Of a stretch of DNA of 21,736 nucleotides, positions 653-18,201 are shown in pieces. The stretch comes from Melioribacter roseus. Lineage in GTDB: Bacteria > Bacteroidota > Ignavibacteria > Ignavibacteriales > Melioribacteraceae. A program made the translations under genes and the position numbers. Below the pieces are notes generated by a model. It had not been told where the DNA came from. It saw only the letters and a list, made by a program, of their open reading frames with translations, and searched no databases. The first letter of the stretch is position 1, and the number at the start of each line of letters is the position of its first letter. The stretch covers positions 1 through 21,736 of the forward strand of contig DYHC01000003.1 in assembly GCA_020724325.1 (NCBI GenBank), in the 5' to 3' direction.

Positions 653-3600
653 TTATTTCTTCGAGTCAATCTGTTTCAACAATTCATCGCATGCTGCTTT
701 CAACTGTTCATCAACACCTTTCGAAATCCAGTTAACAGAATTTTCCAATACAATATCCGGAACAGCGGGACCGAGTTCTTGATTCTTGTCAGTTGCTTTT
801 GTAAACCATCCTCTGAATGGGAGCCGGACGAATGAGCCGTCAATCAATCCTTTGCCGCCGGTTGAAATTACAGAACCATTTGTAGGAAACCCGACAAGTT
901 TGCCAATACCAAGTGTTTTATAAGCATGCGAGAAGATTTCAGCATTCGAATAACTTCCTTCGTTGCAGAGCGCTATAGAGGGTTTAATCCATGCTGCAAA
1001 GACAAGTCGCTCGCCCAATGGATAGTATTCACGGTATTTCAGTTTATCTTTTTCAAGATCATTACTGGCGCCACGTGGAATTGTGTAAGCATGTTGTTTA
1101 TAATTTAATACTGTCATCAAATAATCTGTTGTAGAGCCGCCGCCGTTGTAACGTACATCAATTAATAATCCGTCTTTCCCGTATCCTGCAGCAGTTAATT
1201 CTCTTTCAAATACTTCAAAACTCGGGAAGTCCATTCCCTGAATATGAATATAACCTAATCGTCCGCTCGAATATTTTTCAACAAGCTTCTTCCTCTCTGC
1301 AACCCACTCTAAATACATTAACTGGCGTAAAGAAGCTGTCGGGCGAATTACTACCTCTCTCTCTTTTCCATCTTTACCTTTTATATTCAGTAAAACTTTT
1401 TCGTCTGCTTTTGTATTAAGGAGTTCATAAAAATTACTTTCCGGACTAAAGTTATAACCATCAACTGCGGTAATAACATCATCAACAAAAAGTCTGCTTG
1501 TTGATTTATCTGCCGGCGAATCCGGAATTACCCGCAATACTTTCATTCCATCATTTATTGGCATTAATTCAACACCAAGCAAGCCGGTTGCATCTCTTTG
1601 TGTTTCGCCTCTTTCCTGGGAATTAAAGCCCATATGGCTTGAATTCAATTCGCCAAGCATATTATTGAACATGTCGCGCAAATCGTTATTTGTTGAAGCC
1701 ATCAAACATAAGCCGCGGTACTTTTTACGGAGCGTATTCCAGTCCTCGCCATGGAATTTTGGATCGTAGAATCCATCTCGGATTGCCCGCCACGCTTCTT
1801 CAAAAATCTGAAGTCGTTCTGCAGGATAATCGATTTTCATTTTAGCCAAATAAGGAAGCGCTTCCGACTTGTCGGCTTTAATATCATGCCGCGTAATAGA
1901 GCCGCCCATTTTCATGTAGTAGAGATATTTCCCTTCCTTATCAATTGCAACATTTAGTGGATTGGAACCGCCTTTTGTAAGCTCTTTCAAATCCTTTCCG
2001 TCCCACTTAATACTGTAAAGGTCTCTTCCTTTTGCTGTGCTGCTTTGTCCGGTATAGAAGAATGTTTCGCCGTCTTTAGAAATTATCAGGTTACCCTCAT
2101 TACCGGGGAAGTTTGTAACCTGAACAATCCGCTCATGAATTTTATCGAAATCGATTTTGATCGGTTTAACCTTCGGTTCGTCTTTTTTAGATTTATCATC
2201 GGAAGGTTTCGGTGCTGCCGGCTTATCTGCTGCGGGTTCTTTTTCATCCCAATCCTGTTTCGTTTTTTCCCAATCGTCTTTCTTAAGCCAAACAAACCAT
2301 ATATCTGTACTTCTGTTGTTTCTTTCGGAAGTGAACCCAAGTTTTGAACCGTCAACACTCCAGAATGGATTGCCGTCTGAACGCGGATGCATGGATACAT
2401 TAACAGGCTTCATCGAATTATCTACTTCATGAATAAAAACTTCTTGATTGAAATAAAGATCGTTTTGAGAATAAGCAAGCCATTTATCATCCGGACTCCA
2501 TGTAACATTTTGCGGAGAGTTCCAGCCCTTGTGAAGAATTTTTTCGTTGCTCATTGTTCCATTGTTAGAAATATCTGCAACAACAAATTCTTTAACGTCT
2601 TTACCTCGAATGTAAACTATTTTCTTCCCGTCATTTGAAATCGATGGAGATGTTTCATCGCCGTCGGTATCTGTTAGTTTTACAATACTATGTTTAAGCG
2701 ATTTGAAAATGTTCGATTGATTTGGATCCGCTGATTTCAGAAGATAGAATTCGTAATTGTTGCCTTCGCGATCTGAAGAGAATATTAAAGTAGTATCGCT
2801 CAGCCATGCAAACTCCAGATCGCGGTACGGTGAATCTGATACATTTATACTTCTTGATTTATCCTTATCGGCTTCTTTAATAAAAATTTCTCCGCGTACA
2901 GCAAATGCTAACAGCTTACCGTTGGGGGATATTTCGTAAGCAGTTGCGTTATTATTGAAGGTCTTTATTTCAACCGGGTCGAAACGATCGTCTGCACTAA
3001 TAAACACATCAACTTTCTTTGCAGAACCTCCGGATGATTTCATTATGAAAATATTTTTTTCTTGTTCATAGACAATTGAAGAGCCGTCAGAAGAAAGTGA
3101 GAAGTAACGAATCGAATGATCTTTTACGTTTGTCAATTGTTCCGGCTTGCCCACAACTTTGCCGTTATCATCAATTTTTATTCTGTAGATATTATAGTTG
3201 CCGTTTATCGAGCTCATAAAAAAAATTGTTCTGTTATCGCTCCATTGAGGCATAATATCGTTGGTTTCGTTGCTAATAAGTTTAGAATATGTTTTCGATT
3301 TTGTATCGTATAACCAGATATCTCTGTTGGATGGACCTTTGTAATCTTCGCGGAAAACCGGGTTGATATCACCTCGGACAAATGCGAGAAATCTTCCATC
3401 CGGCGAATAAGCCGGATCAAAACCAACCGCATCTAGAATACGCTTTTCGGTTCCGCCTCCCGATGAAATTGAATAAACTTCCTGAGGACGTTCTATTTGA
3501 TTAAACTCGCGGGTAGTTGAAAAAATAATATCGCCGTCTTTAGTCCAGCTCGAGATGTTGTCGGCTGCTGAATGAAATGTTAAACGTTTCGGCATGCCGC

Positions 3601-3982
3601 CATTGGTCGGCATTACAAATATATCGTTGTTGCCATAACGGTTGCCGGAAAATGCAATCCATTTGCCGTCGTAAGAGAATTTGGGATTAGATTCGTAAGC
3701 TTCGTGGATAGTTAAACGCGTTGCTTTTCCGCCGGTTGATGGAACAGTCCATATATCACCTTGAAATGAAAATGCAACTTGGGAGCCGTCATTGTTTAAT
3801 GCCGGAAATCTTAAGAGCAAATCCTCCTGAGCAGAAAGAGGAAAGGATGTAAGAAAAAAAGGAAAGAAGGATAGAAGAAGAGAAGGAATGAAGAAAGAAG
3901 AAAAGAAGGAATGAAGGAATGAAGAAAAGAAGGAATGAAGAAAAGAAGGAATGAAGGAAAAAAATAGAAATGGTCGCTTCAT
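653..3982 (-). CDS. Tricorn-like S41 family protease, secreted
   Basis: A 1109-aa secreted peptidase, presumably periplasmic, that degrades peptides. After an unusual signal peptide (about 1-50, ending SFPLSAQ) come TolB/WD40-like beta-propeller repeats (PDGRFLAFV, SPNGKLLAFA, SPDDKWLAYS) to about residue 600. A Lys/Pro/Asp-rich linker, the tricorn C1 region (FYDPKFHGEDW), a PDZ domain (about 800-882) and an S41 catalytic core from about 907 follow. By comparison with tricorn, the catalytic pair is His783 (in NSSHMGF) and Ser1012 (in GSYSNAEIF). The frame extends 57 codons further upstream, but I chose the ATG at 3982. It has a good AAGGGGG ribosome site and directly precedes a signal peptide, whereas the extension has no secretory character. 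The gene ends at a terminator. It lies 109 bp downstream of the ligase gene and is probably functionally unrelated to that operon. Confidence 0.93.
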   Translation of the reverse strand: MKRPFLFFSFIPSFLHSFFSSFLHSFFSSFFIPSLLLSFFPFFLTSFPLSAQEDLLLRFPALNNDGSQVAFSFQGDIWTVPSTGGKATRLTIHEAYESNPKFSYDGKWIAFSGNRYGNNDIFVMPTNGGMPKRLTFHSAADNISSWTKDGDIIFSTTREFNQIERPQEVYSISSGGGTEKRILDAVGFDPAYSPDGRFLAFVRGDINPVFREDYKGPSNRDIWLYDTKSKTYSKLISNETNDIMPQWSDNRTIFFMSSINGNYNIYRIKIDDNGKVVGKPEQLTNVKDHSIRYFSLSSDGSSIVYEQEKNIFIMKSSGGSAKKVDVFISADDRFDPVEIKTFNNNATAYEISPNGKLLAFAVRGEIFIKEADKDKSRSINVSDSPYRDLEFAWLSDTTLIFSSDREGNNYEFYLLKSADPNQSNIFKSLKHSIVKLTDTDGDETSPSISNDGKKIVYIRGKDVKEFVVADISNNGTMSNEKILHKGWNSPQNVTWSPDDKWLAYSQNDLYFNQEVFIHEVDNSMKPVNVSMHPRSDGNPFWSVDGSKLGFTSERNNRSTDIWFVWLKKDDWEKTKQDWDEKEPAADKPAAPKPSDDKSKKDEPKVKPIKIDFDKIHERIVQVTNFPGNEGNLIISKDGETFFYTGQSSTAKGRDLYSIKWDGKDLKELTKGGSNPLNVAIDKEGKYLYYMKMGGSITRHDIKADKSEALPYLAKMKIDYPAERLQIFEEAWRAIRDGFYDPKFHGEDWNTLRKKYRGLCLMASTNNDLRDMFNNMLGELNSSHMGFNSQERGETQRDATGLLGVELMPINDGMKVLRVIPDSPADKSTSRLFVDDVITAVDGYNFSPESNFYELLNTKADEKVLLNIKGKDGKEREVVIRPTASLRQLMYLEWVAERKKLVEKYSSGRLGYIHIQGMDFPSFEVFERELTAAGYGKDGLLIDVRYNGGGSTTDYLMTVLNYKQHAYTIPRGASNDLEKDKLKYREYYPLGERLVFAAWIKPSIALCNEGSYSNAEIFSHAYKTLGIGKLVGFPTNGSVISTGGKGLIDGSFVRLPFRGWFTKATDKNQELGPAVPDIVLENSVNWISKGVDEQLKAACDELLKQIDSKK
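3882..3960. repeat. Octanucleotide minisatellite inside the protease signal peptide
   Basis: Read on the plus strand, the tract is an array of 8-bp units. GAAGGAAT occurs at 3882, 3905, 3913, 3929 and 3945, alternating with GAAGAAAA (3921, 3937) and close variants (3890, 3953); one unit at 3898 is 7 bp. It encodes the Ser/Phe/His-rich hydrophobic stretch of the signal peptide, where SFLHSFFS is repeated because three 8-bp units equal eight codons. Eight is not a multiple of three, so gain or loss of one unit would shift the frame just after the start codon. Confidence 0.85.
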
Positions 3983-4091
3983 AGTGACCCCCTTGTTTAA
4001 TAATGTTTGAGCAAAAATATAATTATTAGTTGAGAGGGGCAAAAACCTTTGATAAACAATTGAGGGTTTGGAAAATAATCTCGACTTACAA

Positions 4092-5438
4092 CTATTTTTC
4101 CATCGGAGCTCCTTTTGTTCTTCCCATCCAAGAAAGTTCATTAAATTCGCCAAAGTGTTCGCGAAAGATTCGATAATACAGTAATTCTTCTTTTGAATTT
4201 AATTTCCACCCGTTAGGTAGAATTCTTTCTCCTCGAAAATCGTCATCGGTGATTTTTTCTTTTGCGTAATCATATATCAATTCATGAATGCCTGCACCTT
4301 CCCAAAACTTAGCTTTTGTTCTATTTAGAATTTTTACAGGCAAAGAATTGTTCATTGCTTTCCGTAAAATCCATTTCTCTGTTTTATCTTTTAGTTTTAG
4401 ATCACCAGGAATTTGGAATGCGTAATTAAATACGATTGGATCGGCAAATGGCACATGAGCGGTAATCCCGTGTGCAGAAGAACATCTATCGACTCTCTGA
4501 AGTGCAGTATTGTGTAGCCGATTAGTGATATCTATTAATTCGCCTTGTAGATTAGAAGTATCGAGCGATTTCAAATATTCGTAACCGGCAAACAACTCAT
4601 CTCCTCCTTCACCAGAGAAAACCGCATCGGAGTAGTCCGAAGATGCTTTGCCTACAACAAAATTTGTAAGACTTGATCTAACTAAGAGAGCGTCAAACGA
4701 TTCAAGATGATATATAACATCAGGCAGTAATTTAATTAATTCTTTTACGGTTACTTTAATTTCATGATGCCGGGAACGAATAAACTCAGCAGCTGCCTTA
4801 GCATATTCGAGATCTGGCGAGCCTTCTAAACCGACAGAGAAAGTATGAAGTTTATCGACATGTTTTCGAACTATCGATGAGATTGAACTTGAATCCAATC
4901 CCCCTGAAAGCCAAGCTGCTGCGATTTTATTTTTTATCCTTTTCTCAACAGCTTCACTGAGTAGTGAGTAAAGTTTATTTGCTATTTCTGTTTCATTTTC
5001 ATTGAACATGGGATCAAACTTCAACTTGAAATATTTATTAAATGAGTTGTTCGAAAATATGTACCCAGGTGGAAATTCAAAGACGCTTTTGACAAAGTCC
5101 TTCAGTGCTTTAACTTCCGATGCGAAACAAAGACTTTCGTCTTCTGTGAATCCATAGTAGAGTGGCGCAGCTCCAAGCTCGTCACGAATTAATGAAAGTC
5201 CTCTTCCATCTATTGAAGCTTTGGCTAAGCGCCCATCTCCGTTTCCATCTTGCACAAATAATTTTTGATGAAAAATCATCTTATTACTTTTACTATTCGA
5301 ATCCATCACAATTCCGATTGTGGCGGATTTGTTTTCGACAATTTCTATTGCTTCCTTTCCTCGATGAGAAATTTTTTCAAGAATCTTTTTTATCAATTGC
5401 GATTCATTGGGTTTATTTATTCCAGCTATTCCTGCCAT
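4092..5438 (-). CDS. Asparagine-synthetase-like ATP-dependent ligase lacking the glutaminase cysteine
   Basis: A 448-aa asparagine synthase family protein. The C-terminal synthetase domain looks intact, with PP-loop SGGLDSS at 178-184, SGEGGDELFAGY at 275-286 and a HVPFADP segment near 329, so adenylation of a carboxylate is expected. The N-terminal Ntn-amidotransferase domain is degenerate. The protein starts MAGI instead of MCGI (nucleophile Cys replaced by Ala), the region between SHRG (24-27) and RDELGAAPLYY (85-95) is short, and no NGEIYN-type motif is present. It therefore cannot be a normal glutamine-dependent AsnB. Known Cys-less relatives include beta-lactam synthetase and carbapenam synthetase, which use an internal amine as nucleophile; ammonia-dependent use is the alternative. 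The start is fixed by a GGAG site. It is the last gene of a three-gene operon, 18 bp after the mutase-like gene. Confidence 0.85.
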   Translation of the reverse strand: MAGIAGINKPNESQLIKKILEKISHRGKEAIEIVENKSATIGIVMDSNSKSNKMIFHQKLFVQDGNGDGRLAKASIDGRGLSLIRDELGAAPLYYGFTEDESLCFASEVKALKDFVKSVFEFPPGYIFSNNSFNKYFKLKFDPMFNENETEIANKLYSLLSEAVEKRIKNKIAAAWLSGGLDSSSISSIVRKHVDKLHTFSVGLEGSPDLEYAKAAAEFIRSRHHEIKVTVKELIKLLPDVIYHLESFDALLVRSSLTNFVVGKASSDYSDAVFSGEGGDELFAGYEYLKSLDTSNLQGELIDITNRLHNTALQRVDRCSSAHGITAHVPFADPIVFNYAFQIPGDLKLKDKTEKWILRKAMNNSLPVKILNRTKAKFWEGAGIHELIYDYAKEKITDDDFRGERILPNGWKLNSKEELLYYRIFREHFGEFNELSWMGRTKGAPMEK

Positions 5439-5456
5439 TATATCTCCTTTAATTTG

Positions 5457-7091
5457 TCATAGTTGATCAATTATTTTTTTCAATCTTTCTTTTTCTCTTA
5501 TGATTTCGCTTGCCGATTCATCAACAGCGTAATAAGCACCATCAATCACACGAGTCAAAATTTTTCCGCATAAATGTTCATTACCGCGGAAATGTGGTGC
5601 GTCTAAAATTCCAATTTTTATTGCATCTGATAACACTTTAGGGTCGCTCCAGGGGTCTTCGCTTTTATCAGAACCAAATTTTTTCAACCCGTTCAAAAGT
5701 TCATTCGATTCATTTATCAATTCATTCTTTCGTGAATTAATCTTTGGATCAGTGAGATAATCCGGTGCACCGAATAGACAATTACGTAAAACCCCATGTG
5801 CAATCTGACAGCTTTCGATAAGTTCTTCAGGATAAATTGCATGATCTCCTTCGCTGAAACCAACTACATGTAAGATATGCGGTTTAATCGAAAGGCAAGT
5901 TACAATTGAAGAACCTAATTGCCCTTTGGCAACACTTGGATCGGAAGAGAAATGCGCAATTCCCGGTCGGGCTTCGATAAAGAAATTAAAATCGTTGTTA
6001 CATAATTTTTTAATCATCTCGAGCTTTGCAGACATTTTGGCTACATCCATACTCATCCAAGTGCCTGGCGGAGTATTGAACATAAATTGTGCTACATAAT
6101 TTTTGACTCCCATTTTCTTCGCATTGTAAGCCGCCAAGAAAAACATAGTAACCGCGAGTGAATCGTGCGCTTCCCTCAAACTCCATTGATGAGATTCGTT
6201 TACTTCAACTGGAATTTCTCTATCAGCATACCATTTCATAATTTTTTGATTTTCAGTGATTGCTTCCTCGAGTGATCTTTTCGATCTTCCATCGATTACA
6301 CTGTACCAGCAAAGAGGGATTGCTGCCCAAGCATTTTTAATTGTTTCAACACTCATCTCCGCCCACTTTATCAAATCGTTTGTTCCGCTGTAGCATCTTA
6401 ACAGCGGAAAGTTACCGCATCGGGTCGCTTCGTAGATTGCTTTCATATCATTGGGCGATCTTACCGGTACACCGCCGGCTCCATCCAATTTATGATCCAT
6501 CTTTTCATGATTAAAAAAATGTTCTTGAGCGTTTTGATCTATTCCTAATGAAATAACATCAATCAATTCGGATTCTGCGATTTTTTTTGCTCCATTGATT
6601 GTTTCCTGCACAGTCGGTCTGCCAAAGTGATGACGAATGATTGGATACGGATACTTGTTCGAAATTCGTTCGATAAGATTATCGGAATGAATAGCTTTTA
6701 CAAAGACATCTTTTCCGCCGTTCAGATAATTTTTTATTTCTTGAATAGATTCCGTCCCATCGAAGACTTTATCGAATAAACCTGATTCTATTGCGGCTTT
6801 GACATTCGGCGGAGTTCCACCAAAAATAAATTTTACATTAGCAAGATTTTTCTCTTTGATAATTTTTTTCAGTTCACCAAATAATTCTTTTGCCGATTCA
6901 TCGGTTAGTCTATAGCTAAGAGCAACAACGACGGGCTTTTTATCAATCACTTCTCGAATGAGCCGTTCCAATTTTACTGCCGGTCCTAATAATTCAGCCG
7001 TAAACCCTTCCGATTCGGTAATTTTCAAAAAGTTGTACAACCCCCAAACGTGAACACAATTACCGATTGCCGCACCTAATATTTTTTTCAT
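5457..7091 (-). CDS. B12-binding, glutamate-mutase-like fusion protein
   Basis: A 544-aa protein. Residues 1 to about 125 resemble the cobalamin-binding subunit of glutamate (methylaspartate) mutase, GlmS. GNCVHVWG at 10-17 sits where GlmS has a DxHxxG motif, followed by ALSYRL, a FIFGGTPP turn and FDKVFDGTESIQEI, which matches the order of the GlmS C-terminal part. The expected axial-ligand His is present (His14), but the Asp of the motif is Cys12. The rest resembles the GlmE-type TIM barrel (CWYSVIDGRSKRSLEEAI, then EVNESHQWSLREAHDSLAV and KKMGVKNYVAQFM). In classical glutamate mutase the two parts are separate chains, with B12 binding on the small one; here they are fused with B12 first. 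The likely role is adenosylcobalamin-dependent carbon-skeleton rearrangement of an amino acid or related acid; the substrate is unknown. It lies 29 bp after the opine-dehydrogenase-like gene and 18 bp before the ligase, so cotranscription is very likely. Confidence 0.75.
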   Translation of the reverse strand: MKKILGAAIGNCVHVWGLYNFLKITESEGFTAELLGPAVKLERLIREVIDKKPVVVALSYRLTDESAKELFGELKKIIKEKNLANVKFIFGGTPPNVKAAIESGLFDKVFDGTESIQEIKNYLNGGKDVFVKAIHSDNLIERISNKYPYPIIRHHFGRPTVQETINGAKKIAESELIDVISLGIDQNAQEHFFNHEKMDHKLDGAGGVPVRSPNDMKAIYEATRCGNFPLLRCYSGTNDLIKWAEMSVETIKNAWAAIPLCWYSVIDGRSKRSLEEAITENQKIMKWYADREIPVEVNESHQWSLREAHDSLAVTMFFLAAYNAKKMGVKNYVAQFMFNTPPGTWMSMDVAKMSAKLEMIKKLCNNDFNFFIEARPGIAHFSSDPSVAKGQLGSSIVTCLSIKPHILHVVGFSEGDHAIYPEELIESCQIAHGVLRNCLFGAPDYLTDPKINSRKNELINESNELLNGLKKFGSDKSEDPWSDPKVLSDAIKIGILDAPHFRGNEHLCGKILTRVIDGAYYAVDESASEIIREKERLKKIIDQL

Positions 7092-7120
7092 TTTGCCCTT
7101 TCTAATTTTTTTACCTATTT

Positions 7121-8224
7121 CTACTTTTCACCAATTGCAAGCAGACGCAAATCCTTTAATGTCATATCCTGAATACCAAGTTTTTCGACCGTTCTTCCAA
7201 TGGACCAGAAATCAGTTTGGAGTAAAATAGAAGAGAATTCAATTATTGAGTTTATCGTTGGAGTAGGAACACCGAATTTTTTTCCAATAGAAGAGATCGG
7301 GACTAAGCTAGCCGGAACATCTTCAGTAATATATCTCATTCTCAACCTTTTAGGAGCTAGAATACCGCTGTAGCCCAGATTTGCCCGCATCGCTTCGAAT
7401 AAATTTCTACCGGTAGCGCCGTAGCCAAGGTAAAGCCATTCTTTCGCTGTTAGAGCACGAATACCCAATGCTTCAGCGACAGATACACGTTCACTATCGA
7501 CTTTTTCCAATATCAAAGCGGTTGAAGGTGTAATACCTTGCATATAAAATTGAAAATCGGCTTCATCTTCTATCCATCCTGCATTTAATACACATAAGGT
7601 AGGATGAAAAACCGCTCCAATATTATCGAGACTGGTTTTCAAAACATTATCACCGGCGACAAACTGTGGATAAGCTATACGCAATTTTTTCAGAACTTCT
7701 GGAATAAGATGAGCACGAATCGAAGCAACCGGAATAGAGTTTTTAATTCTAAAAATTTTGGATTGAGCTGGACCCATTGTTCTTGATGCATAAATAAAAG
7801 TTTGCGCCTCAACCACTACAACGTCTGCTTTACAATTATTTTTTTTAAGTATTTGTTTGAACTCAATTGCACCAAATGTTCTACCCGGGTTTAGAACAAT
7901 CATTTGACCATCTTTCAAAAAAGGGGCACATTTTTCCGCAAGATATCCATGTCCGGTTGCTGGTACTACAACCATAATTATATCAACATCATCAATTGCC
8001 TCTTCTATGTTTGTGGTTGTTATATTTATTTTACCAAATCCTTCGACCTCGCCTTCGAGAGTTATTCCTCCCATCGAGTCTACTCCCCATAATCTTTGTT
8101 TACTGCGATTATAAAGATTTACTTGAAAACCCATTATGGCCAAGTGACCTGCCATAGCTAAACCACCGTGACCTGCACCAAGCACGGCGAATTTCAGTTT
8201 AAGTTGTGATGTTTGATTCGTCAT
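7121..8224 (-). CDS. Octopine/nopaline (opine) dehydrogenase family oxidoreductase
   Basis: A 367-aa cytoplasmic NAD(P)-dependent enzyme. It has an N-terminal Rossmann fold with GAGHGG at 16-21, VPATGHGYL at 88-95 and NPGRTFGAIEF at 112-122, all typical of the opine dehydrogenase family. An alpha-helical C-terminal domain holds an N201-H207-P208 region (DNIGAVFHPT) corresponding to the substrate-binding and catalytic His segment of that family. These enzymes reductively condense an amino acid amine with an alpha-keto acid. The frame can start at 8257, but I chose ATG 8224: a GGAGG lies a few bases before it and the Rossmann strand begins soon after, while the 11 extra residues (MKYKQIKMEET) overlap that ribosome site. 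It is the first gene of an operon with a B12-mutase-like protein and a Cys-less Asn-synthetase-like ligase. Substrates cannot be read from the sequence. Confidence 0.85.
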   Translation of the reverse strand: MTNQTSQLKLKFAVLGAGHGGLAMAGHLAIMGFQVNLYNRSKQRLWGVDSMGGITLEGEVEGFGKINITTTNIEEAIDDVDIIMVVVPATGHGYLAEKCAPFLKDGQMIVLNPGRTFGAIEFKQILKKNNCKADVVVVEAQTFIYASRTMGPAQSKIFRIKNSIPVASIRAHLIPEVLKKLRIAYPQFVAGDNVLKTSLDNIGAVFHPTLCVLNAGWIEDEADFQFYMQGITPSTALILEKVDSERVSVAEALGIRALTAKEWLYLGYGATGRNLFEAMRANLGYSGILAPKRLRMRYITEDVPASLVPISSIGKKFGVPTPTINSIIEFSSILLQTDFWSIGRTVEKLGIQDMTLKDLRLLAIGEK

Positions 8225-8477
8225 TGTTTCCTCCATCTTGATTTGTTTGTATTTCATAATATGTTTTCTCTATTTAGCTTATTGATGTAGGATCCAATCA
8301 AATTAGCGTGTGCAATTAGAATACATAAAAAGGTAAGGCAATATTTATTAAGGTGCAATAGAATTATCAGCTTAAAAATTACACGCGCATTGATTCATAA
8401 TTAATATAATCCAAGAGAGGTTGGGTCGATGGTCGTTGACTTATAATATAGGTAACCAAAAATTATGGATTTATATT

Positions 8478-8829: not shown

Positions 8830-10968
8830 TTAGAATTTCCACTGCATTCCAAACTGAATGAGTCGTGGACTGCCAACTAGAATGCCGCGAGTACGATCTA
8901 CAATATAAATCTTATTGGTAAGGTTTTTTATCGTGAGGAATAGCGTTGTATTAAAAATTTCGAGATTATAATTGAATGCCGCATTCCAGATCATGTAAGC
9001 CCCTATCTTACCGCGCTGCCCATCGGCTGTTGGAATTGTTGTATTAGCAAAATCGGCAAACTGCTCAGAGACGTGTACAGCTTCAAGCTGAGTGTTGAGT
9101 TCATCCACAGTATAACCTGCTGCTATAGTGAGTAAATGTTTCGGAGCGTAGGGCTGGCGATTCCCGGCTGCGCTTCCAGCAATAATTGTATTGCCCACAA
9201 CTTGTTGAAAGGGAGTAGTTTGTTCGGCTCTCTGCAAAAATGTGTACGCTCCGTTCAAATACAGCCCATTTGCAAGATCAAAATAACCCGATAGTTCCAT
9301 TCCCTGAAAGAGCGCCTCGCCCTGTGCTAAAGGAGTAGCTCCAGCGGCAATAGAACCTACAGCGATCAGTCGCTTAAAATCATTACGGAAAAGAGTAACC
9401 TGAAATACATTAGCAGAAGAAGGCTGCAAACGTGCACCAAGTTCCCAATTGGTTGATTCCTCTGGTTCAACATTTGTTGCGGTTCCAACAAGACCTATAA
9501 TATCTTCTGTGCGGGGCGGGGAAAATCCGCGATGTACTCCTGCAAATACAGTCAGTGTTGTAGTTGGATTCCAGTTTACTCCTAAACTGGGGACCCACTT
9601 GCCCAAATCATCCGAACCGGCTTTGCCACCTGGGAGCCGATTGGTACGCAACGAGCTGATATATTCGTAACGTAGCCCCGGTGTAACAGAAAAGTTACCG
9701 AAAAGAAACCGATTAACAATAAAAGCCGAATAGGCTTTGGTTTCGCGTATATTGTCCTCTACTGTTGTACCAGCTCGCGCTGTTGGAGTTATGCCGTTTA
9801 TCTGTCTCCGATTCTGCTCTTCGAAATGCACTTTAATACCAAACTGCAGCTCGCTGCTTATTCCTAATACTGAGTGTAAAATCTTCAGTCGTGGCTCAAC
9901 ACCAAGAGTAGTATATTTTCGTAAACGTCCTTGAACTGAGTTAAGGTCGTCTGGATTAACTTTCTTGCCCGCAAGACGAGCATCTCTAAACGCAATACCG
10001 GCGGCACCTCCTTGTGTATCGGTTGTTGTGCTGGATTGACGCCACCAATCCCGGTTGAATTGTGAGAGATAGAAATTAGTCGTTAACAAGACGCTTTCGC
10101 CCAGCTCAAGATTATGAGTAGCCGAGGCACCATAACGCTTGATGTCAAACCGGTCGTTCTTAAAGGGATTGTAAAAAGGACCGAAGTTTTGGAATTCTGC
10201 CTCTGTAAGACCACTATAGGTTACAGTTGAGTTTTCTGTAAACACATTGGCGCGCAGAGTAATTGCTTGATTACTACCTAAACCAAGTACTGCCTTAAAG
10301 TTAAAATCGTTCAGTTGTGAATAGATATTATTGCGAGCGCCTTCTCCCTGTTTGCGGGTATAGTCCAGCAGCATCCGATGAGCACTCAGTCTAACCTTAC
10401 CATCGAAATATCCCCGGTTGCCGCCGGTAACAGAAACAAAACCGCCAAATAGCTCCGCGGGTGCTGGCGTGATGTAATTAATAATACCGCCTATCGTCTG
10501 CGGCCCAAACAGTATCTGACCAGCTCCTTTCAATAACTCAATCCGCTCGAAACGGTCTATAGGCGGGTGATAGTAGCTTGCATTATCTCCATAAGGCGAG
10601 TAAGCAACTGGAACTCCATCTTCAAGCAAAGTAACTTTTGTTGTGCGGGTTGGATTTAGTCCGCGAATACTAATATTGGGTCGTAGTCCAAAACCATCTT
10701 CATCGCGCACATTTACCCCTGGAAACTTGCGCAGCGCTTCATTTGTTGTGAACACGCGGCTGATTTCCAATGAACGCATATGTAAAACATTTGCACTGCC
10801 CGGAATCGTAATAAGATTTTCTGTCGTACCAATCACATTGACCACCGGCATAATATAAGTAGTATAGATAGTATCTTCCAGAACGGTTTTCTTCGTCTGT
10901 GACAAAAGTGTGCAGGTGCTAATAAGAACGAGTGTTAAAATGTAAATCAACTGTTTATTGATGTGCAT
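8830..10968 (-). CDS. FecA-like TonB-dependent outer-membrane receptor
   Basis: A 712-aa ligand-gated outer-membrane transporter. It has a signal peptide (about 1-23, ending LLSQ), a short pre-plug segment with a possible TonB box (PVVNVIG, 41-47), and a plug domain (about 50-170) with RPNISIRGLNPTRT, LLEDGVPVAYSPYG and the FecA-type signature FGPQTIGGIINYITP near 154-168. A 22-strand-type barrel follows, ending in a C-terminal aromatic residue (QWKF). It lacks an N-terminal carboxypeptidase-like or FecR-signalling domain. The ligand is probably a ferric or other metal chelate, by family only. The start is supported by GAGGAGG 8 bases upstream. The gene is visibly richer in G+C than its neighbours and lies between transposase remnants, which suggests transfer. 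It shares strand with the downstream opine-dehydrogenase-like operon, so the ligand might be that operon's product; this is inference. Confidence 0.9.
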   Translation of the reverse strand: MHINKQLIYILTLVLISTCTLLSQTKKTVLEDTIYTTYIMPVVNVIGTTENLITIPGSANVLHMRSLEISRVFTTNEALRKFPGVNVRDEDGFGLRPNISIRGLNPTRTTKVTLLEDGVPVAYSPYGDNASYYHPPIDRFERIELLKGAGQILFGPQTIGGIINYITPAPAELFGGFVSVTGGNRGYFDGKVRLSAHRMLLDYTRKQGEGARNNIYSQLNDFNFKAVLGLGSNQAITLRANVFTENSTVTYSGLTEAEFQNFGPFYNPFKNDRFDIKRYGASATHNLELGESVLLTTNFYLSQFNRDWWRQSSTTTDTQGGAAGIAFRDARLAGKKVNPDDLNSVQGRLRKYTTLGVEPRLKILHSVLGISSELQFGIKVHFEEQNRRQINGITPTARAGTTVEDNIRETKAYSAFIVNRFLFGNFSVTPGLRYEYISSLRTNRLPGGKAGSDDLGKWVPSLGVNWNPTTTLTVFAGVHRGFSPPRTEDIIGLVGTATNVEPEESTNWELGARLQPSSANVFQVTLFRNDFKRLIAVGSIAAGATPLAQGEALFQGMELSGYFDLANGLYLNGAYTFLQRAEQTTPFQQVVGNTIIAGSAAGNRQPYAPKHLLTIAAGYTVDELNTQLEAVHVSEQFADFANTTIPTADGQRGKIGAYMIWNAAFNYNLEIFNTTLFLTIKNLTNKIYIVDRTRGILVGSPRLIQFGMQWKF

Positions 10969-11864: not shown

Positions 11865-14293
11865 ATGTCCGAAAAGAATTATGATGCGGTTCTTAAAGAA
11901 TTAGAGCAACTAAAAAAAGAAAACGACGCATTAAGAAGAAACGTATTTAACGAAAAGAAAATAATTAAAGTTGACTTTAGCAACACGTTTTTTAGTATAA
12001 TATTAGAAAACGCATCAGTTGGTATTGTTCTTTTTAATGAAGACGGCAGAATATCTAAAGTAAATCCGTTTTTATTAAACATGCTTGGTTACACAGAACA
12101 AGAATTATACGATTTAAAATGGGAAGCGATTACACATCCGGATGATGTTGCATCTTTATCAAAAGAATTTGATGATCTACTAAACGGGAAGAAAAGTTAT
12201 TTAAAGTTTGAAAAGCGCTGCGTATCAAAAGCTGGTCAAACCAAAAACACAAGAATTATCATTAGTATTATACGGGATGAAAAAAATCCGCTTCACTATT
12301 ATCTTGGAATAATAGAAGATATAACCCCACAAAAAAAGCTTGCCAAAGAAGAGCGTTTGTTTAACATTCTTATGGACAACATTCCAGACAAAATTTATTT
12401 CAAAGATTTAAATAGCAAATTTGTTAAAGTTAGTCGTTCCAAAGCTATTAAGTCGGGCTTCAAAAATCCCGAAGACATGGTTGGTTTAAGTGATTTTGAT
12501 ATATTTGGAAAAGAACACTCTCAACAAGCATTTGCGGACGAACAATTAATAATTAAAACTGGCGAGCCAAAAATTAACATCGAAGAAATGGAAGATTGGC
12601 TAGACGGAAGAGTTACGTGGGCATCTACAACCAAACTTCCTTTATATGATGCTAACGGTAAAATAATAGGTACCTTCGGAATTACACGTGATATAACAGA
12701 ACGAAAGGAAATGGATAAAGCCCTTCATGAAAGCGAGGAGAGATATAGAAAACTATTTCAGACATCCGCAGACGGCATGTTCTTAATGACCGATGTAATT
12801 GTAGAGTGTAACGATGCCTCATGTAAAATACTTAATTATGAAAGAGAAAATTTGCTGAGGCACTCGCTGGTAGAATTTTGCCCGGAATTTCAAGAAGAAG
12901 GAAGAAAATCTGCCGACTCATTTGAAGATTATTTGGCGTTGGTTAAAGAAGGAGAAAATCAAAGCTTTTACTGGAAATTCAAGACTTCTGATGGCAGAAT
13001 TATTGATACCGAGGTGTTCCTTAATCTTATCTTAAGTGATGGTAAAAAAATTATACAGGCAATATTCCGGTATATTACAGAAAGAAGCCGGTATGAAAAA
13101 GTTCGCGAAGCATTATTCGAAATTTCTGAAGCGGCTTACAATGTAAATGATATGGATAGTTTGTATAGACAAATTCATCATACAATTAGCAAACTTATGC
13201 CCGCAAAGAATTTTTATATTGCTTTTTATGATGAAAAAGAAAATCTCCTTTCGTTTCCATACTATGTGAATGAGAAAGACCCTCCGATAACTTCAAAGAA
13301 ATTTGGAAGAGGTTTAACCGAATATGTACTGAGGACCGGGGAAGAAATTCTTGTTAATGCTGAAAAAGATATTGAATTACAACGAAAGGGTGAAATAGAA
13401 ATGGTAGATGCGCCTCAAACTATTTGGCTTGGAGTTCCTCTTAAAATTAGCGGCAAAACCGTTGGTGTAATAGCGCTGCAGAATTACAAAGACGAAAAAG
13501 TTTATGGCGAAGAAGAGCTTCTCATTTTAACTTTCGTTTCTGATCAGGTTGTTCAGGCAATTGAACGAAGAAAAAATGCCGAAGAAATTAAACGTTATGC
13601 GGAAGAACTCAAACAACTTAATGCTACAAAAGATAAATTTTTCTCCATTATTGCTCATGATCTAAAAAACCCGTTTATAACTATTTTAGGTTTTTCAGAT
13701 CTGCTAATTACAGATTACGATGAGTTAACCGACGAAGAAATACTTTATTATGTCCAGGAAATGAAAAGCTCTGCCGATAAATCGCACAGTCTTCTCCAAA
13801 ATTTACTCCAATGGTCCCGTTCTCAAACCGGGCACATACACTACAATCCTCGCAAATTGAATTTAAGAGAAATTGCCTGTACAAATGCAAATTTAGTACA
13901 GCCGGCTGCTCAGAAAAAAAATATTGCTTTAGATTGTTCGCTTAATGAAAATATCTTTGTTAATGCCGACGAAGACATGCTGAATACAATATTTAGAAAT
14001 TTGTTAAGTTTACAGATTTAGGAGGCAGCATAAAAATTAATTCAAAATCAATAGAGGGTTTTGAAGAAGTTACTATTGAAGACAACGGGATTGGAATGCC
14101 GGAAGATATTCGTCTTAATTTATTCCGACTAGATAAATCTTATACTACAACCGGTACTCAGAACGAAACCGGCACCGGGCTGGGGCTTATCCTTTGCAAA
14201 GAGTTTGTCGAAAAACAAGGCGGCTCTATTAAGGTAGAAAGCGAAGAAAGCAAAGGTACAAAATTCATTTTTACGTTACCTTTATACGAATAA
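11865..14293 (+). pseudogene. Multi-PAS/GAF histidine kinase broken in the ATPase domain
   Basis: A sensor kinase with no membrane segment, so probably cytoplasmic. Domains in order: a short coiled N-terminus (about 8-25), PAS 1 (about 45-155), PAS 2 (about 160-275), PAS 3 (about 285-405), GAF (about 415-560), a coiled linker, then HisKA with the phospho-acceptor His598 in SIIAHDLKNPF. The first frame ends at 14021 in ...FRNLLSLQI. The HATPase remainder (KFTDLGGSIKI, EDNGIGMPEDI, TGTGLGL, then KGTKFIFTLP) continues from 14006 in another frame to 14293. Family kinases read LLSNAIKFT here, so about 13 nt encoding the N-box Asn are missing. The AAGT at the junction fits a slipped deletion between short repeats. 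ATP binding should be lost, leaving a 718-aa sensor/HisKA protein at most. An AGAGGG site precedes the ATG. No response regulator is adjacent. Confidence 0.85.
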
Positions 14294-14860
14294 GTATAAA
14301 TGTCTTTTCTCTTTTCCAAGAGATAACTTATATGAATTCCATATGTTTAATATTTATTAGATAACAATTATGCGCTTATCTGAAAAATAAACGAGACTCT
14401 TTGCATTAAAGAAAAAAATATTGATTTTGTTGGAGAGCTGTCGGTTCGACAGTAATTGTAGAGCTGGTATTGTCAACAGAGTAAATAATATTAAATGATT
14501 CCCAAATAACTAATTTTTATTCTTTATAAAATTTACACAAGATAGAATTTGATCCGCTTTAACTCTTTAGAAAATTTAAAAATTATAGATTCTCATCCTG
14601 AAAAAATATAAATTGCATACAATCAGTTTGGTACCAAATGAATATTTCTTCAGTTAATATATTGACCTATCATTTCTACTCCTTTACTAAATACCCAATT
14701 AAAGTATTGTACTCTATTTTATTCAAAACCATTTTAGTATTTGATTCAATTGATATAAAATAGTTAATAGTTTGTCGTAATAAATTCTAAAATATTCTTA
14801 TACAGCAAAATCACCTTTACTAAAAAGTAAAAAATCCAGTTTGTTTATTAAAGGTAAAAA
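14294..14860. other. 567-bp AT-rich leader region of the radical SAM operon
   Basis: No gene or transposase fragment was recognised. A small hairpin (TCTCTT-TTCC-AAGAGA, 14308-14323) just after the kinase stop may be a weak terminator, without a strong T tract. The 3' end holds copy A of the shared 60-bp element (14790-14849), directly ahead of the radical SAM start codon. The remaining sequence is very AT-rich and featureless to the eye. Confidence 0.5.
14790..14849 (+). promoter_or_regulatory. Shared 60-bp regulatory element, copy A
   Basis: This matches copy B (17004-17063) at 55 of 60 positions, with the first 32 bases identical. It contains a hairpin TTTACT (14816-14821), loop AAAA, AGTAAA (14826-14831). 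The loop differs from copy B (GAAA) while both arms are identical. It ends 11 bases before the radical SAM ATG, so at least part of it should be in the 5' untranslated RNA or overlap the promoter. Promoter, operator and RNA element are all possible. Confidence 0.7.
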
Positions 14861-16378
14861 ATGAGATTAAGCAGTTATACAATATTATCTGATCCTCTAC
14901 CTGGTGGCGGATATGTCTTAATGAACGGATATAATGGTGCGATAGATTTGATATCTGACAAAGTCGCTCTCGCTTTAGTACTTTATGGAAAATTTAGAGG
15001 TCCAGAAGGGAAATATTACACGCCCAAACTAAGAGAAAAACAAAAACATTACTTGAACTATGATAGACCAAAAATAGATGAAAACAGTATTGAAAAGTTC
15101 TTGCCATTTGAGGCCGATTTAATTGATTTCTTTTCTAAAAGAGGTCATTTAACAAAATTATCCCACGTTGAAGAAAAAGAATTGGTTAAAACAATGAGTG
15201 AGGTACTTCATGAGAAGGCTAAAAAACAGCCAAGCTTTGTACTTGTTCCCAGCTTAGATTGTAATTATAGATGCTTGTATTGTTACGAAAGAGTTCTTCA
15301 GAATTCTTTGGATTCAGATTTGAGTAATGTTAATTACTTAAAGAAAAATGTTGTTCTTAGTAGTGATCAAGTTGATGCAATATATAAATGTATTAACGAA
15401 TTGAAAAAATATCACGAAGATGAAAGCAATGACAAAAGTATAACTTTATATGGCGGAGAACCATTTAATGCAGCGAACAAGGAATTGATTTATGAAATAG
15501 TTAGTAAAGGGAAATTGAATGGGTTTACCTTTTCTGTTATAACAAATGGGCATGATCTTGAACATTTTTTACCTTTAATAAACAAAGGTGGAATCTCTCA
15601 TATTCAAATAACTTTGGACGGCCCACAAAACATTCATGATCGAAAAAGAATAAGTGCTGATGGAACTAGTTCGTTTAATAAAATAATATCAAATATTCAT
15701 TCATTGTTAAACCTCACCGACTTAGAAATTAATATTCGTGTTAATTTGGATAAACAGAACATTGAATATTTTGATGAATTAATTAATCAATTAGACAAAG
15801 AAGGTTTTCTGGATTATAACAATCTTTTTGTATACATCAGCCCAATTACAGTTAAACTTTGTGATTCAAAAATACATACATTGATTACATCGAAAGAGAT
15901 AACACAGTTTTTTGGTGATAGATATAAAAGCCGAAGAAATATATGTATTAACTCTAAATTTATTGATGAGATAAAATCGTTAAATCCTTCGTTGTTGCAG
16001 CAGAAACCGCATGAAATAAAGTCGGTTGCTTGTGCTGCAAATGTCTGTGAATATATTTTTACCCCAGACGGATTTATATATCCTTGCTGGGAAACCTTAG
16101 GTCTTGATGAGCATAAAATAGGATCTTATAATTTAAACGGTAATGTAAAAATTAATAAAGAAGTGGCTGAACGTTGGTTTAATCGGCATTCCGCCAAAAT
16201 CCCTCAGTGTTTAGAGTGTTCATTTTGTTTACTGTGCTCAGGAGGGTGTGCAATCCATGCATTATATAATAACGGGACTTTATATAGTAATAATTGTCGA
16301 GGTTTTAACGAAGAGTTAGGTACACATATTGCCAATTTTGTTGAAGAGTTTGCAATGGTTATTCAAAAACATGAATAA
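14861..16378 (+). CDS. Radical SAM/SPASM peptide maturase
   Basis: A 505-aa iron-sulfur enzyme. The N-terminal region (1-120) has the GGGYVLMNGYNGAIDLIS type opening seen in SPASM peptide maturases. The radical SAM core carries the cluster motif C134-X3-C138-X2-C141 (CNYRCLYC) and the GGEPF motif at 198-202. A C-terminal SPASM domain (about 390-482) has C396-X12-C409, then C450-X2-C453-X5-C459-X3-C463 and C479, the expected set for two auxiliary 4Fe-4S clusters; extra Cys391 and Cys456 are also present. The family modifies ribosomal peptides (thioether, C-C or C-O crosslinks) or proteins (anSME). The likely substrate is the Cys-containing Tat protein encoded 46 bp downstream. The ribosome site is weak (AAAGG), and the shared 60-bp element lies immediately upstream. 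The pairing is inferred; the enzyme class is clear. Confidence 0.9.
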   Translation: MRLSSYTILSDPLPGGGYVLMNGYNGAIDLISDKVALALVLYGKFRGPEGKYYTPKLREKQKHYLNYDRPKIDENSIEKFLPFEADLIDFFSKRGHLTKLSHVEEKELVKTMSEVLHEKAKKQPSFVLVPSLDCNYRCLYCYERVLQNSLDSDLSNVNYLKKNVVLSSDQVDAIYKCINELKKYHEDESNDKSITLYGGEPFNAANKELIYEIVSKGKLNGFTFSVITNGHDLEHFLPLINKGGISHIQITLDGPQNIHDRKRISADGTSSFNKIISNIHSLLNLTDLEINIRVNLDKQNIEYFDELINQLDKEGFLDYNNLFVYISPITVKLCDSKIHTLITSKEITQFFGDRYKSRRNICINSKFIDEIKSLNPSLLQQKPHEIKSVACAANVCEYIFTPDGFIYPCWETLGLDEHKIGSYNLNGNVKINKEVAERWFNRHSAKIPQCLECSFCLLCSGGCAIHALYNNGTLYSNNCRGFNEELGTHIANFVEEFAMVIQKHE

Positions 16379-16424
16379 ACTTAATTAAAATATCTTCCAA
16401 CTAAATAAGCGTAAGGAGTAAATT

Positions 16425-16913
16425 ATGAAAAATCGCAAGAAGAATAACGAGAGGAATTCGGTTACTTCTTCAGAAAGAAGAGAGTTCATTAAAAAAGCCT
16501 CCCAGGTTACAGCTGGTGTTACGTTAGGAACTATGTTATCCCCAATCGAACTATTTTCTAATGAAAGAATGACTCAAAATCAGGCAATGAAATTAAACGA
16601 AGAATTGATTTTATTGCCAGACGGGAACGTTTACGATAAAGATGGGTTAGCAAATAAACTCAAGCTTAGTATGTGGCCTGAATGTATTTGTAAAACACTA
16701 GAATGTATTTGTCGTAAATTTAGTATTAGTGGTTGCGGTAATAAAATTATTGTAACCAAGGCTAAATTTAAGATTACTAAAGGTGGAAGAAAGATTCCTT
16801 TAGACAAACCAGTTGTGGCTTATTGGGAATGGTTAGAAGTGGGAGATGCAGCTCGGTTAGTAAAAGAAGGTATTATTGATAAGGAGATGTTGGAGCATAT
16901 AAGAAAGTTATAA
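16425..16913 (+). CDS. Tat-signal Cys-rich protein, putative radical SAM substrate
   Basis: A 162-aa protein I do not recognise as a family. It opens with a twin-arginine signal: ERREFIKKA at 17-25 (motif RRxFIK), then a mild hydrophobic region (about 25-45). The mature part has five Cys in an 18-residue stretch: Cys87, 89, 94, 96 and 104, with ECIC-KTL-ECIC as a duplicated motif, followed by a basic segment and an acidic, helical C-terminus (VGDAARLVKEGIIDKEML). Tat export handles proteins folded or loaded with cofactor in the cytoplasm. That fits a polypeptide that is first modified by the adjacent radical SAM enzyme, or loaded with a metal, and then exported. GGAGTAAATT precedes the ATG. 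The gene is cotranscribed with the maturase and followed by a strong terminator. Alternatives: a metal-cluster protein, with the maturase acting elsewhere. Confidence 0.75.
   Translation: MKNRKKNNERNSVTSSERREFIKKASQVTAGVTLGTMLSPIELFSNERMTQNQAMKLNEELILLPDGNVYDKDGLANKLKLSMWPECICKTLECICRKFSISGCGNKIIVTKAKFKITKGGRKIPLDKPVVAYWEWLEVGDAARLVKEGIIDKEMLEHIRKL
16680..16712 (+). repeat. 12-bp direct repeat encoding the duplicated Cys-Ile-Cys motif
   Basis: GAATGTATTTGT occurs exactly at 16680-16691 and 16701-16712, in frame, encoding Glu-Cys-Ile-Cys twice. Identity at all wobble positions suggests recent duplication or strong constraint on this stretch. Confidence 0.8.
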
Positions 16914-16941
16914 CAATTGAATTCCAAAGGAAGACGGTTAT

Positions 16942-16972
16942 AAAAAGGTCGAGCATGTCCTGACCTTTTTTT
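16942..16972 (+). terminator. Rho-independent terminator after the radical SAM operon
   Basis: Arms AAAAAGGTC (16942-16950) and GACCTTTTT (16962-16970) are perfectly complementary with an 11-nt loop, followed by further T residues. It begins 28 bp after the Tat-protein stop codon and separates this operon from the next, which starts with its own copy of the 60-bp element. Confidence 0.88.
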
Positions 16973-17003
16973 GGAGAAAGAGTACATATAATGTTATTAT
17001 AGG

Positions 17004-17063
17004 AAATATTCTTATACAGCAAAATCACCTTTACTGAAAAGTAAAAATTCCGATTTATTTATT
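17004..17063 (+). promoter_or_regulatory. Shared 60-bp regulatory element, copy B
   Basis: 55 of 60 positions match copy A (14790-14849). The hairpin TTTACT (17030-17035), loop GAAA, AGTAAA (17040-17045) is preserved, with the only nearby difference in the loop. It lies between the preceding terminator and the first secreted-protein gene, 59 bp before its ATG, which places it in the promoter or leader of that operon. Confidence 0.7.
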
Positions 17064-17122: not shown

Positions 17123-17659
17123 ATGAAACTGAAACAATTCCATTATTTTATTTTCATATTCTATTCAATCCCAACTTCCATATTTTTTTCATTAGAAACC
17201 AAAGAAAAGACTTTTGATGAATTCAATAGTGCTGCTTCAAATGCAACTGTTAAAGCTGAACCCGTCGCTGGTGCCGAGATAATGATAGAATTATTACCCG
17301 GGCCGAAGGGACCATGCATAACCCGTGATGATGGCGTATTTGGAATTAATTTTTCTAACATCATTGAAGTGCAAGGCAAAGAATCAAAAGTAATTAATGT
17401 TAGACTTACTATTAAACCCAAAAGTAACTTTCCTTATAAAACGCTCAATAACATTTTCCCTTTAACCCTATCGAAATCTGATGGACCGTATTACGAATTC
17501 ATATTAAAATTTGTTAAAGACAATCCAAACGCTGGTACTGGAAAATTTATAATCGAAAAAAACCAACAAGTTAAAGCTAGTCCTCAAGGTGCAAAACAAG
17601 GTAAAGGTTCAGCCGTTAAAACTGGGCAAAGCTACCAGGGTGAAGTAAGACATTTTTAA
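17123..17659 (+). CDS. Secreted protein with carboxypeptidase-regulatory-like fold, paralogue 1
   Basis: A 178-aa exported protein with a Sec-type signal (about 1-23, FHYFIFIFYSIPTSIFFS). The segment PVAGAEIMIELLPGP...TRDDGVFGINF (about 47-75) has the strand-turn-strand look of carboxypeptidase regulatory/transthyretin-like domains (AxVxV...TDxDGxFxF). A second beta segment carries RLTIKP and SDGPYYEFILKF. The Gly/Gln/Lys-rich tail (about 150-178) is probably disordered. It shares its core layout with the next gene (RLTIKP/KLKIKP, GPYYEFIL/GPKYELIL), so the two are likely paralogues. AAGGAGG precedes the ATG. It is the first gene after the second copy of the shared element, which links it by regulation to the radical SAM operon. 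The function is unknown; binding to or presenting the Tat-exported product at the envelope is a guess. Confidence 0.75.
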   Translation: MKLKQFHYFIFIFYSIPTSIFFSLETKEKTFDEFNSAASNATVKAEPVAGAEIMIELLPGPKGPCITRDDGVFGINFSNIIEVQGKESKVINVRLTIKPKSNFPYKTLNNIFPLTLSKSDGPYYEFILKFVKDNPNAGTGKFIIEKNQQVKASPQGAKQGKGSAVKTGQSYQGEVRHF

Positions 17660-17685
17660 CACAAATATTAATGGAGGAAGAAAAA

Positions 17686-18201
17686 ATGAAAGCAGCCAAT
17701 CAAAAAATTATTTGCGCAGTTTTTATTTTACTTGCATTAATGTCATTTCAAACCATAGCGCAAGAAAAAACGAAAACAGAGAAAGAAAGGGAAATTATTG
17801 GATCAGGTTTTGAAAAGAAAATTGCTAATGCTGCAATAACAAAAGCGGTTGTAGTTTTAACTCAACTTCAAATATCTTCAGACGGCGAAAGTACAGCCAA
17901 AACTGAAAAAGCCCAATTCGATGTAATCTTAAAAAGCAGAATTGTAACAAATAAAGAGGGCGAATTCATAATCAACATTCCCATAGACCAATTCAATAAG
18001 ATTCCTGAAACAACCACTTTTGAACTTAAACTTAAAATTAAACCATCAAAAGAATTTGTCGGAATTTATAAGACTGATGAAGCAGTAATTAAACTAAAAC
18101 AATCTGCCGGACCTAAATACGAACTAATATTAATTTGGATTCCTGATGCTGTAAAAACTAATAAAGGTACATTTGCCGTTAGTTCAAGAGCGCAAACATA
18201 A
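17686..18201 (+). CDS. Secreted protein, paralogue 2 of the preceding gene
   Basis: A 171-aa exported protein. It has a signal peptide (about 1-26, a run ending LMSFQTIAQ), a charged linker (EKTKTEKEREI), then a beta-rich domain with VTNKEGEFIINI, ELKLKIKP and SAGPKYELILIWIPD. The last two match the order and spacing of the preceding protein. The frame opens at 17671, but I chose ATG 17686: GGAGG lies 8 bases upstream, and the five extra residues (MEEEK) are encoded by that ribosome site. The 26-bp gap to the preceding gene makes cotranscription likely. Like its partner, it looks like a small carboxypeptidase-regulatory/Ig-like envelope protein without enzymatic motifs. Confidence 0.75.
   Translation: MKAANQKIICAVFILLALMSFQTIAQEKTKTEKEREIIGSGFEKKIANAAITKAVVVLTQLQISSDGESTAKTEKAQFDVILKSRIVTNKEGEFIINIPIDQFNKIPETTTFELKLKIKPSKEFVGIYKTDEAVIKLKQSAGPKYELILIWIPDAVKTNKGTFAVSSRAQT

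Follow-up and report, generated by a model that had tools for sequence, protein, structure and literature searches.

A gene pair that may constitute a maturation cassette resembling those of ribosomally synthesized and post-translationally modified peptides (RiPPs) was identified in contig DYHC01000003.1 of Melioribacter roseus (assembly GCA_020724325.1). The entire contig of 21,736 nucleotides (nt), hereafter called the window, was analysed; the parent assembly has a size of 2.3 Mb and is 67% complete. The pair consists of a gene for a complete radical S-adenosylmethionine (SAM)/SPASM maturase of 505 amino acids (aa) and, on the same strand, a gene for a 162-aa protein that carries five cysteines and a signal resembling those of the twin-arginine translocation (Tat) pathway; both open reading frames (ORFs) were found as an earlier note on this DNA had described them. 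We favour, with moderate confidence, the view that the small protein undergoes a radical modification in the cytoplasm, most likely the formation of a thioether, and is then exported through Tat. Judged from sequence, the cassette would combine radical SAM maturation with a family of Tat-tagged substrates with a conserved core, here called the CGSNA family, of which the window protein would be a core-exchanged member. The features of the cassette are as follows.

14861..16378, + strand: radical SAM/SPASM maturase, 505 aa (PF04055; the N-terminal region aligns to that of CteB)
16413..16418, + strand: ribosome-binding site AAGGAG of the small gene, read from the sequence
16425..16913, + strand: 162-aa Tat-tagged likely substrate, a divergent CGSNA-family member by profile matches
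16473..16559, + strand: Tat-like signal, residues 17-45 (ERREFIKKASQVTAGVTLGTMLSPIELFS), below the TIGR01409 cut-off and aligning with the Tat leaders of relatives
16611..16667, + strand: conserved pre-core segment, residues 63-81 (LLPDGNVYDKDGLANKLKL), from alignments with relatives
16668..16832, + strand: replaced core, residues 82-136, with all five cysteines in place of CGSNASAL, from alignments
16833..16910, + strand: conserved C-terminal segment, residues 137-162 (LEVGDAARLVKEGIIDKEMLEHIRKL), by profile match
16942..16972, + strand: terminator-like hairpin with a T run (-9.6 kcal/mol, z = -1.06)

The maturase

The radical SAM motif CX3CX2C of the maturase is formed by C134, C138, and C141, and its SPASM domain (TIGR04085, 49.5 bits; cut-off, 27) contains C391, C409, C450, C453, C459, C463, and C479. 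None of the ten cluster cysteines varies among 26 aligned sequences, i.e. the window enzyme and 25 relatives. Among the best 25 of 49 NCBIfam matches, no peptide-maturase model reached its cut-off: scores were 135.6 bits for TIGR04463 (cut-off, 525), 129.2 bits for NF038107 (CefB; 600), 109.8 bits for TIGR04334 (Clo7bot; 600), 96 bits for NF047865 (PapB; 340), and 72.7 bits for SCIFF (425). Six other maturases (L002, L009, L010, L016, L051, and P0003) reached no curated cut-off of the families matching at E 1e-20. By these scores, the window maturase is a member of none of the TIGR04463, CefB, Clo7bot, and PapB families, in agreement with the earlier note, which had recognized no named system. 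A grouping with the anaerobic sulfatase maturase (anSME), which the note had said would speak against its interpretation, was not seen either (TIGR03942, 68.3 bits; cut-off, 349.45).

CteB (PDB 5wgg/5why) was the best full-length solved structure for the maturase, both by sequence profile and by fold, and in a comparison of whole models, which bears on a possible RRE-type recognition domain, the alignments of the predicted structure with CteB and TigE include its N-terminal part, starting at residues 1-5. In the maturase tree, the window enzyme groups within the clade whose maturases have CGSNA partners (12-row set; Shimodaira-Hasegawa-like approximate likelihood-ratio test, SH-aLRT, 99), on a terminal branch of 1.11 compared with a median of 0.32.

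The 162-aa protein and the CGSNA family

The small ORF is unlikely to have arisen by chance because it has an AAGGAG site, begins 46 nt past the maturase, and has similar proteins in the same position elsewhere. The protein is present on two contigs in the protein database. Its cysteines are residues 87, 89, 94, 96, and 104, and the twin-arginine motif RREFIKK occupies residues 18-24, inside the first 40 residues, with the arginine pair at residues 18-19. The same genome encodes TatC (226.7 bits; cut-off, 25.1), and the relatives at loci L002, L003, L009, and L036 score 16.7-18.3 bits with TIGR01409; a Tat signal in the window protein is plausible on this basis. No Pfam or NCBIfam cut-off was reached by the 162-aa protein, and a CueP-like match was dropped (15.7 bits; cut-off, 195).

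A search with the single 162-aa sequence returned only the protein itself among 5.8 billion proteins. Orphan status was not accepted because the maturase neighbourhoods yielded homologues. A profile of six relatives, built without the window protein, gave the window ORF 28.0 bits (E 4.4e-7 among 4436 ORFs), a score to which the Tat leader contributes in part, and a Tat-less profile of a subgroup of 14 relatives picked for their likeness to the window protein gave 22.6 bits (E 2.4e-5). Against the latter, also built without the window protein, residues 50-162 scored 24.0 bits, a value reached by none of 20000 shuffles (maximum, 15.9 bits). This match sits on two flanks, i.e. residues 63-81 (3.0 bits) and residues 137-161 (17.2 bits; LEVGDAARLVKEGIIDKEMLEHIRK). 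With a broad profile of 119 relatives, the whole window ORF scored 24.5 bits (E 6.8e-6) and its first 49 residues 12.5 bits. Position, leader, the two flanks, and the maturase tree, taken together, make it likely that the window protein is homologous to the CGSNA family.

A profile search, in which the 7,995 candidates sharing most words were scored, yielded 130 family proteins, 120 of which are listed, including that of the window. The motif C[GSRQI]xN is present in all 119 listed relatives, each with the core cysteine and the asparagine three residues on; 77 contain the exact sequence CGSNASAL, and 113 have only one cysteine. Six positions of the 119-relative alignment are invariant where filled (R, the first L, the first P, W, C, and N), and belong to the stretch R-x6-L-G-L-N-P-x-T-P-P-D-A-W-L-x-I-x-x-C-G-S-N-A-S-A-L. 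A Tat-like leader occurs in ~60% of the listed relatives, i.e. in 74 by a loose filter and in 67 by a strict one, the latter count being approximate, since the strict filter misses clear cases (P0126) and admits a few short proteins (P0189). It also detects no leader in the window protein, probably because a charged residue in the single best stretch is disallowed. An AxA site lies in residues 26-60 of 63 of the 67 proteins passing the strict filter. The relatives without a Tat leader are short (about 85-90 aa) or start with an IDFDPP-type segment. As far as tested, the family is named by no curated family, and no paper on a radical SAM substrate with a Tat leader or on CGSNA was found among the matches listed in the open-licence literature, by which subscription papers and preprints are mostly uncovered; excerpts of PMC9062424 and PMC12654047 contained nothing on such a system.

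The Tat leader that the earlier note had seen on the presumed substrate is thus common in the family, but not universal. The Cys-Ile-Cys pattern by which the note had defined the protein is peculiar to the window member among those seen, and the hallmark of the family is instead the single cysteine in CGSNASAL. In the window protein, residues 82-136, which include PECICKTLECICRKFSISGCGNK, contain a Cys-rich stretch with an ordered repeat (ECICKTL/ECICRKF); the invariant L and C are retained, and C104-G-N-K stands where C-G-x-N-A would be expected. As aligned, the window member is atypical in that both flanks appear to be kept and the core to be swapped for a Cys-rich stretch. Its structure model is mostly poor, with pLDDT (predicted local distance difference test) values of 88-89 for residues 61-80 and below 50 for residues 89-111. 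The segment of residues 63-81 may perhaps serve in recognition by the maturase.

Genomic neighbourhood of the maturase

The alignment of the window maturase and 25 relatives retrieved 52 genome loci; a scan of genome contigs with a single maturase sequence gave no match. Of the 15 closest loci (L002-L015 and L036), 11 encode a homologous small partner directly downstream on the same strand (L002-L009, L011, L013, and L036); the two genes overlap by 8 nt at one extreme and lie 153 nt apart at the other. Two partners are present in tandem in L003 and L009, and the 13 partner proteins contain at most two cysteines each. The CGSNA partner is absent from L010, L012, L014, and L015. The whole genomes of 41 of the 52 loci were searched, which gave 13 matches in 11 genomes, and all 13 adjoin a maturase. 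Homologues occurring routinely without the maturase, the other finding that the earlier note had expected to speak against it, were accordingly not seen, and its proposal that the small protein is the substrate of the maturase is supported by the conserved tight pairing.

Samples of the phylum of the window (296 genomes), the class of L036 (385 genomes), and the phylum of L002 (396 genomes) yielded no partner beyond the centre genome, with at most 14, 11, and 11 candidates scored per genome, respectively, such that misses are possible. Maturase relatives that lack a partner are common: in the first of these samples, a maturase relative was detected at E 1e-30 in 7 of the 295 other genomes, none of the sample having a partner. 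No partner was found on viral contigs or plasmids, the viral scan being weak because its confirmation step relies on the divergent window sequence; the maturase relatives on plasmids are distant (23.5-29%, seven records). The maturase-partner pair is rare and scattered, and tight where it is found.

A gene for a DUF6895 protein directly follows the partner gene, above the Pfam cut-off, in 7 of the 11 loci (L002, L003, L004, L006, L007, L011, and L036). That of L013 falls just below the cut-off (23.7 versus 23.8), and that of L008 was assigned solely by similarity to the copies of other loci; L005 and L009 showed no such gene, the L005 sequence extending just 920 bases past the partner. An article cited in PMC13352647 has a title that describes a DUF6895 protein as an epimerase of a lasso peptide. 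The gene after the partner in L009 (Desulfocicer vacuolatum) encodes a RiPP C-methyltransferase (TIGR03975, 502.3 bits; cut-off, 281.85). Ten further neighbours were scanned, five with matches to SIMPL, S1, AstB, cytochrome c, and DnaB and five without a Pfam match.

Small Cys-containing ORFs lie just upstream of the partnerless maturases in L010 (1954-2274) and L012 (1462-1911) and may encode different substrates. Their interpretation as core-swapped partners was dropped (mutual E 1.6; E 46 and 760 against the profile). At 5462-5770 of the partial locus L048, a Tat-tagged partner begins but is broken off past the conserved AKAVLP, and the ORF that starts there resembles a transposase by eye.

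Proposed maturation and alternative explanations

As in RiPP systems of the radical SAM thioether kind (sacti- and ranthipeptides), a candidate precursor gene stands beside a radical SAM/SPASM maturase gene. The scheme that follows is a proposal in all its points, namely recognition, the type and partners of the bond, the sequence of events, export, and function. The maturase would bind its partner in the cytoplasm via segments flanking the core (LPDG...L...L.L before it and DAxxLVxxGxIxxxxLxxIR at the C-terminus), and 5'-deoxyadenosyl-radical chemistry would link one cysteine of the core with a residue close by in the same molecule, most likely as a thioether. In most relatives, the bond partners would be the invariant cysteine and the invariant asparagine three residues on (CGxN). 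Excerpts of PMC8172795 report both an i to i+3 sactionine, Cys31-Gly34 of streptosactin, and asparagine as an acceptor, in Cys13-Asn19 of thurincin H. In the window protein, the bond is proposed to fall within ECICKTLECIC, a segment whose residues Cys89-Lys-Thr-Leu-Glu93 show the CX3E spacing that is used by PapB according to an excerpt of PMC9413430; the specific Cys87-Cys104 crosslink and the cluster loading envisaged in the earlier note are unsupported. The modified protein would then exit via Tat, a signal that would suit a product leaving in a folded state. In Tat-type relatives, the leader would probably be cut at AxA, whereas that of the window protein may stay attached to the membrane, given its weak signal without such a site. 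The nearly invariant core argues against a peptide of an antimicrobial arms race and for a constant partner; the cores of antimicrobial RiPPs are variable.

Several observations weigh against this interpretation. The Tat signal claimed in the earlier note has the arginine pair and a TatC in the genome in its favour, but it scores 12.2 bits with TIGR01409, below the cut-off of 16.7, and no AxA site occurs in residues 26-60; moreover, the partners in 3 of the 11 loci (L007, L008, and L013) have no Tat leader. Four of the six family-invariant residues are changed in the window protein (R72 to K, P absent, W88 to I, and N107 to K). The subgroup profile that matches its Tat-less part was chosen for likeness to it, and against the broad profile, residues 50-162 reach just 8.1 bits (E 0.75). 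Of the 41 genomes searched, all with a maturase relative, 30 yielded no partner at E 1e-4, among them those of 4 of the 15 closest loci. Neither DUF6895 nor TIGR03975 was found in the window genome, which is 67% complete; control genomes likewise gave no match to DUF6895, and 4 of 14 controls matched TIGR03975, none over the cut-off, such that either gene may have escaped detection. The neighbouring genes that were scanned included no recognizable leader protease or exporter. Our confidence in the favoured view is slightly lowered by the low score with the broad profile and by the 30 genomes without a partner.

The changed invariant residues could alternatively mean that the window protein is a decaying or pseudo-substrate that has lost its core and carries a functionless Cys-rich stretch. 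The replacement of the core, the long terminal branch of the maturase, and the broken-off partner at the related locus L048 would fit this explanation, which we nevertheless regard as unlikely: the ORF is intact and has a good ribosome site, the maturase keeps all ten cluster cysteines, the core differs while both flanks remain recognizable, and the insert contains an ordered ECICKTL/ECICRKF repeat. It also appears quite improbable that the five cysteines bind a metal or an Fe-S cluster, with the radical SAM enzyme being unrelated or an assembly helper and Tat carrying a folded metalloprotein. Tat does export folded cofactor proteins, the CxC...CxC arrangement resembles a metal-site pattern, and the far sub-threshold CueP match points in the same direction, but most relatives that share this neighbour contain a single cysteine (113 of 119). 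Multi-Cys metal binding by one chain is therefore not the common role of the family, and peptide modification is what the companion genes of relatives suggest.

A further explanation, which we consider very improbable, is that the maturase, instead of forming a crosslink, converts a cysteine of the core by oxidation into formylglycine, an aldehyde, in the way anSME acts on sulfatases, before a small catalytic protein is exported. Against it stand the score of the anSME model, far below its cut-off, and the fit of CteB over the whole length of the enzyme, including the N-terminal region. The CGxNA core also differs from the sulfatase motif, CxPxR/CxAxR, and the invariant asparagine at +3 would be left unexplained.

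A wider reading can be put forward, tentatively and with less than even confidence. The family would form an undescribed class of radical-SAM-modified mini-proteins that acquire a crosslink at CGxN while in the cytoplasm and are, for the most part, shipped whole and folded via Tat, with tailoring by a DUF6895 epimerase or a C-methyltransferase. The class would be spread thinly over Acidobacteriota, Pseudomonadota, Rokubacteria, Cyanobacteriota, Thermodesulfobacteriota, and the phylum of the window. In the window lineage, the core would have been exchanged for a Cys-rich segment while leader and follower were kept, such that the scaffold would serve radical chemistry as a core-swappable vehicle for Tat delivery. 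The window member appears to show the same scaffold with another core. Radical SAM peptide maturases usually feed ABC (ATP-binding cassette) exporters or leader proteases; were Tat leaders a natural feature of a substrate family, the crosslinked product would be a small protein that resides folded in the periplasm. The near-identical core across phyla points to a fixed target or a cofactor-like role, and with ~130 likely substrates sharing one invariant cysteine and one invariant asparagine, the bond is directly testable.

Regulatory elements and other features of the window

The earlier note had described a strong terminator after the small gene. The hairpin with its T run is present, but it is not strong: 31 of 200 shuffles fold as well, and a consensus terminator scan limited to loops of at most 8 nt detected none at this position. 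A terminator after the small gene is likely nonetheless. In addition, two copies of a 60-nt element, sharing 92% identity, flank the cassette.

14790..14849, + strand: 60-nt element, copy 1, upstream of the maturase
17004..17063, + strand: 60-nt element, copy 2, upstream of the ORF at 17123-17659

Just these two copies were found in the 2.3-Mb assembly. The element contains the palindrome TTTACT-(4)-AGTAAA and suggests regulation shared with two secreted-looking ORFs downstream. These adjacent ORFs (17123-18201) encode proteins of 178 and 176 aa that are alike by eye and have no family match over cut-off. A perfect 24-nt inverted repeat (14840-14863/15563-15586) links the region of the ribosome site and start codon of the maturase to its own coding region, and the predicted mRNA fold pairs both arms; the longest perfect inverted match in 300 first-order Markov randomizations of 14701-17000 was 16 nt. 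Translational control could explain the repeat, as could a relic of template switching or an artefact of assembly.

Elsewhere in the window, a PAS/GAF histidine kinase ORF (11865-14021) ends before the ATPase domain, and ATPase-like residues go on to ~14290 in another frame; by eye, either the gene itself or its assembled sequence contains a frameshift. Genes of the asparagine synthase-like, B12-binding, and octopine/nopaline dehydrogenase types lie in a row on the minus strand (4092-8257), with a TonB-dependent receptor gene upstream of the row (8830-10968), and this row possibly encodes an opine-like metallophore or amino-acid pathway. A tricorn-like protease ORF (653-4153, minus strand) has odd N-terminal Phe/Ser/Leu/His repeats (PSFLHSFFSSFLHSFF...) before a signal-like region.

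Comparison with known systems

TIGR04463, CefB, Clo7bot, and PapB, all annotated as peptide maturases, are among the best NCBIfam matches of the window maturase (96 to 136 bits), far below their cut-offs. CteB, a thioether-forming radical SAM/SPASM maturase of RiPPs, shares 17-20% identity with the window enzyme and acts on a Cys-rich peptide that lacks a Tat leader. TigE (PDB 8vpo) shares 18% identity; no paper on TigE was found in the open-licence literature. The radical SAM/SPASM core is also common to anSME, which modifies a cysteine of proteins that are later exported, but the match is limited to residues 122-501, and the core motif differs. Export of a folded, modified RiPP via Tat is described, in an excerpt of PMC11048544, for a fusion of the nisin precursor to pIII for phage display. 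That fusion was engineered, whereas the Tat-like leader in the window is encoded in a natural small gene beside that of a radical SAM enzyme.

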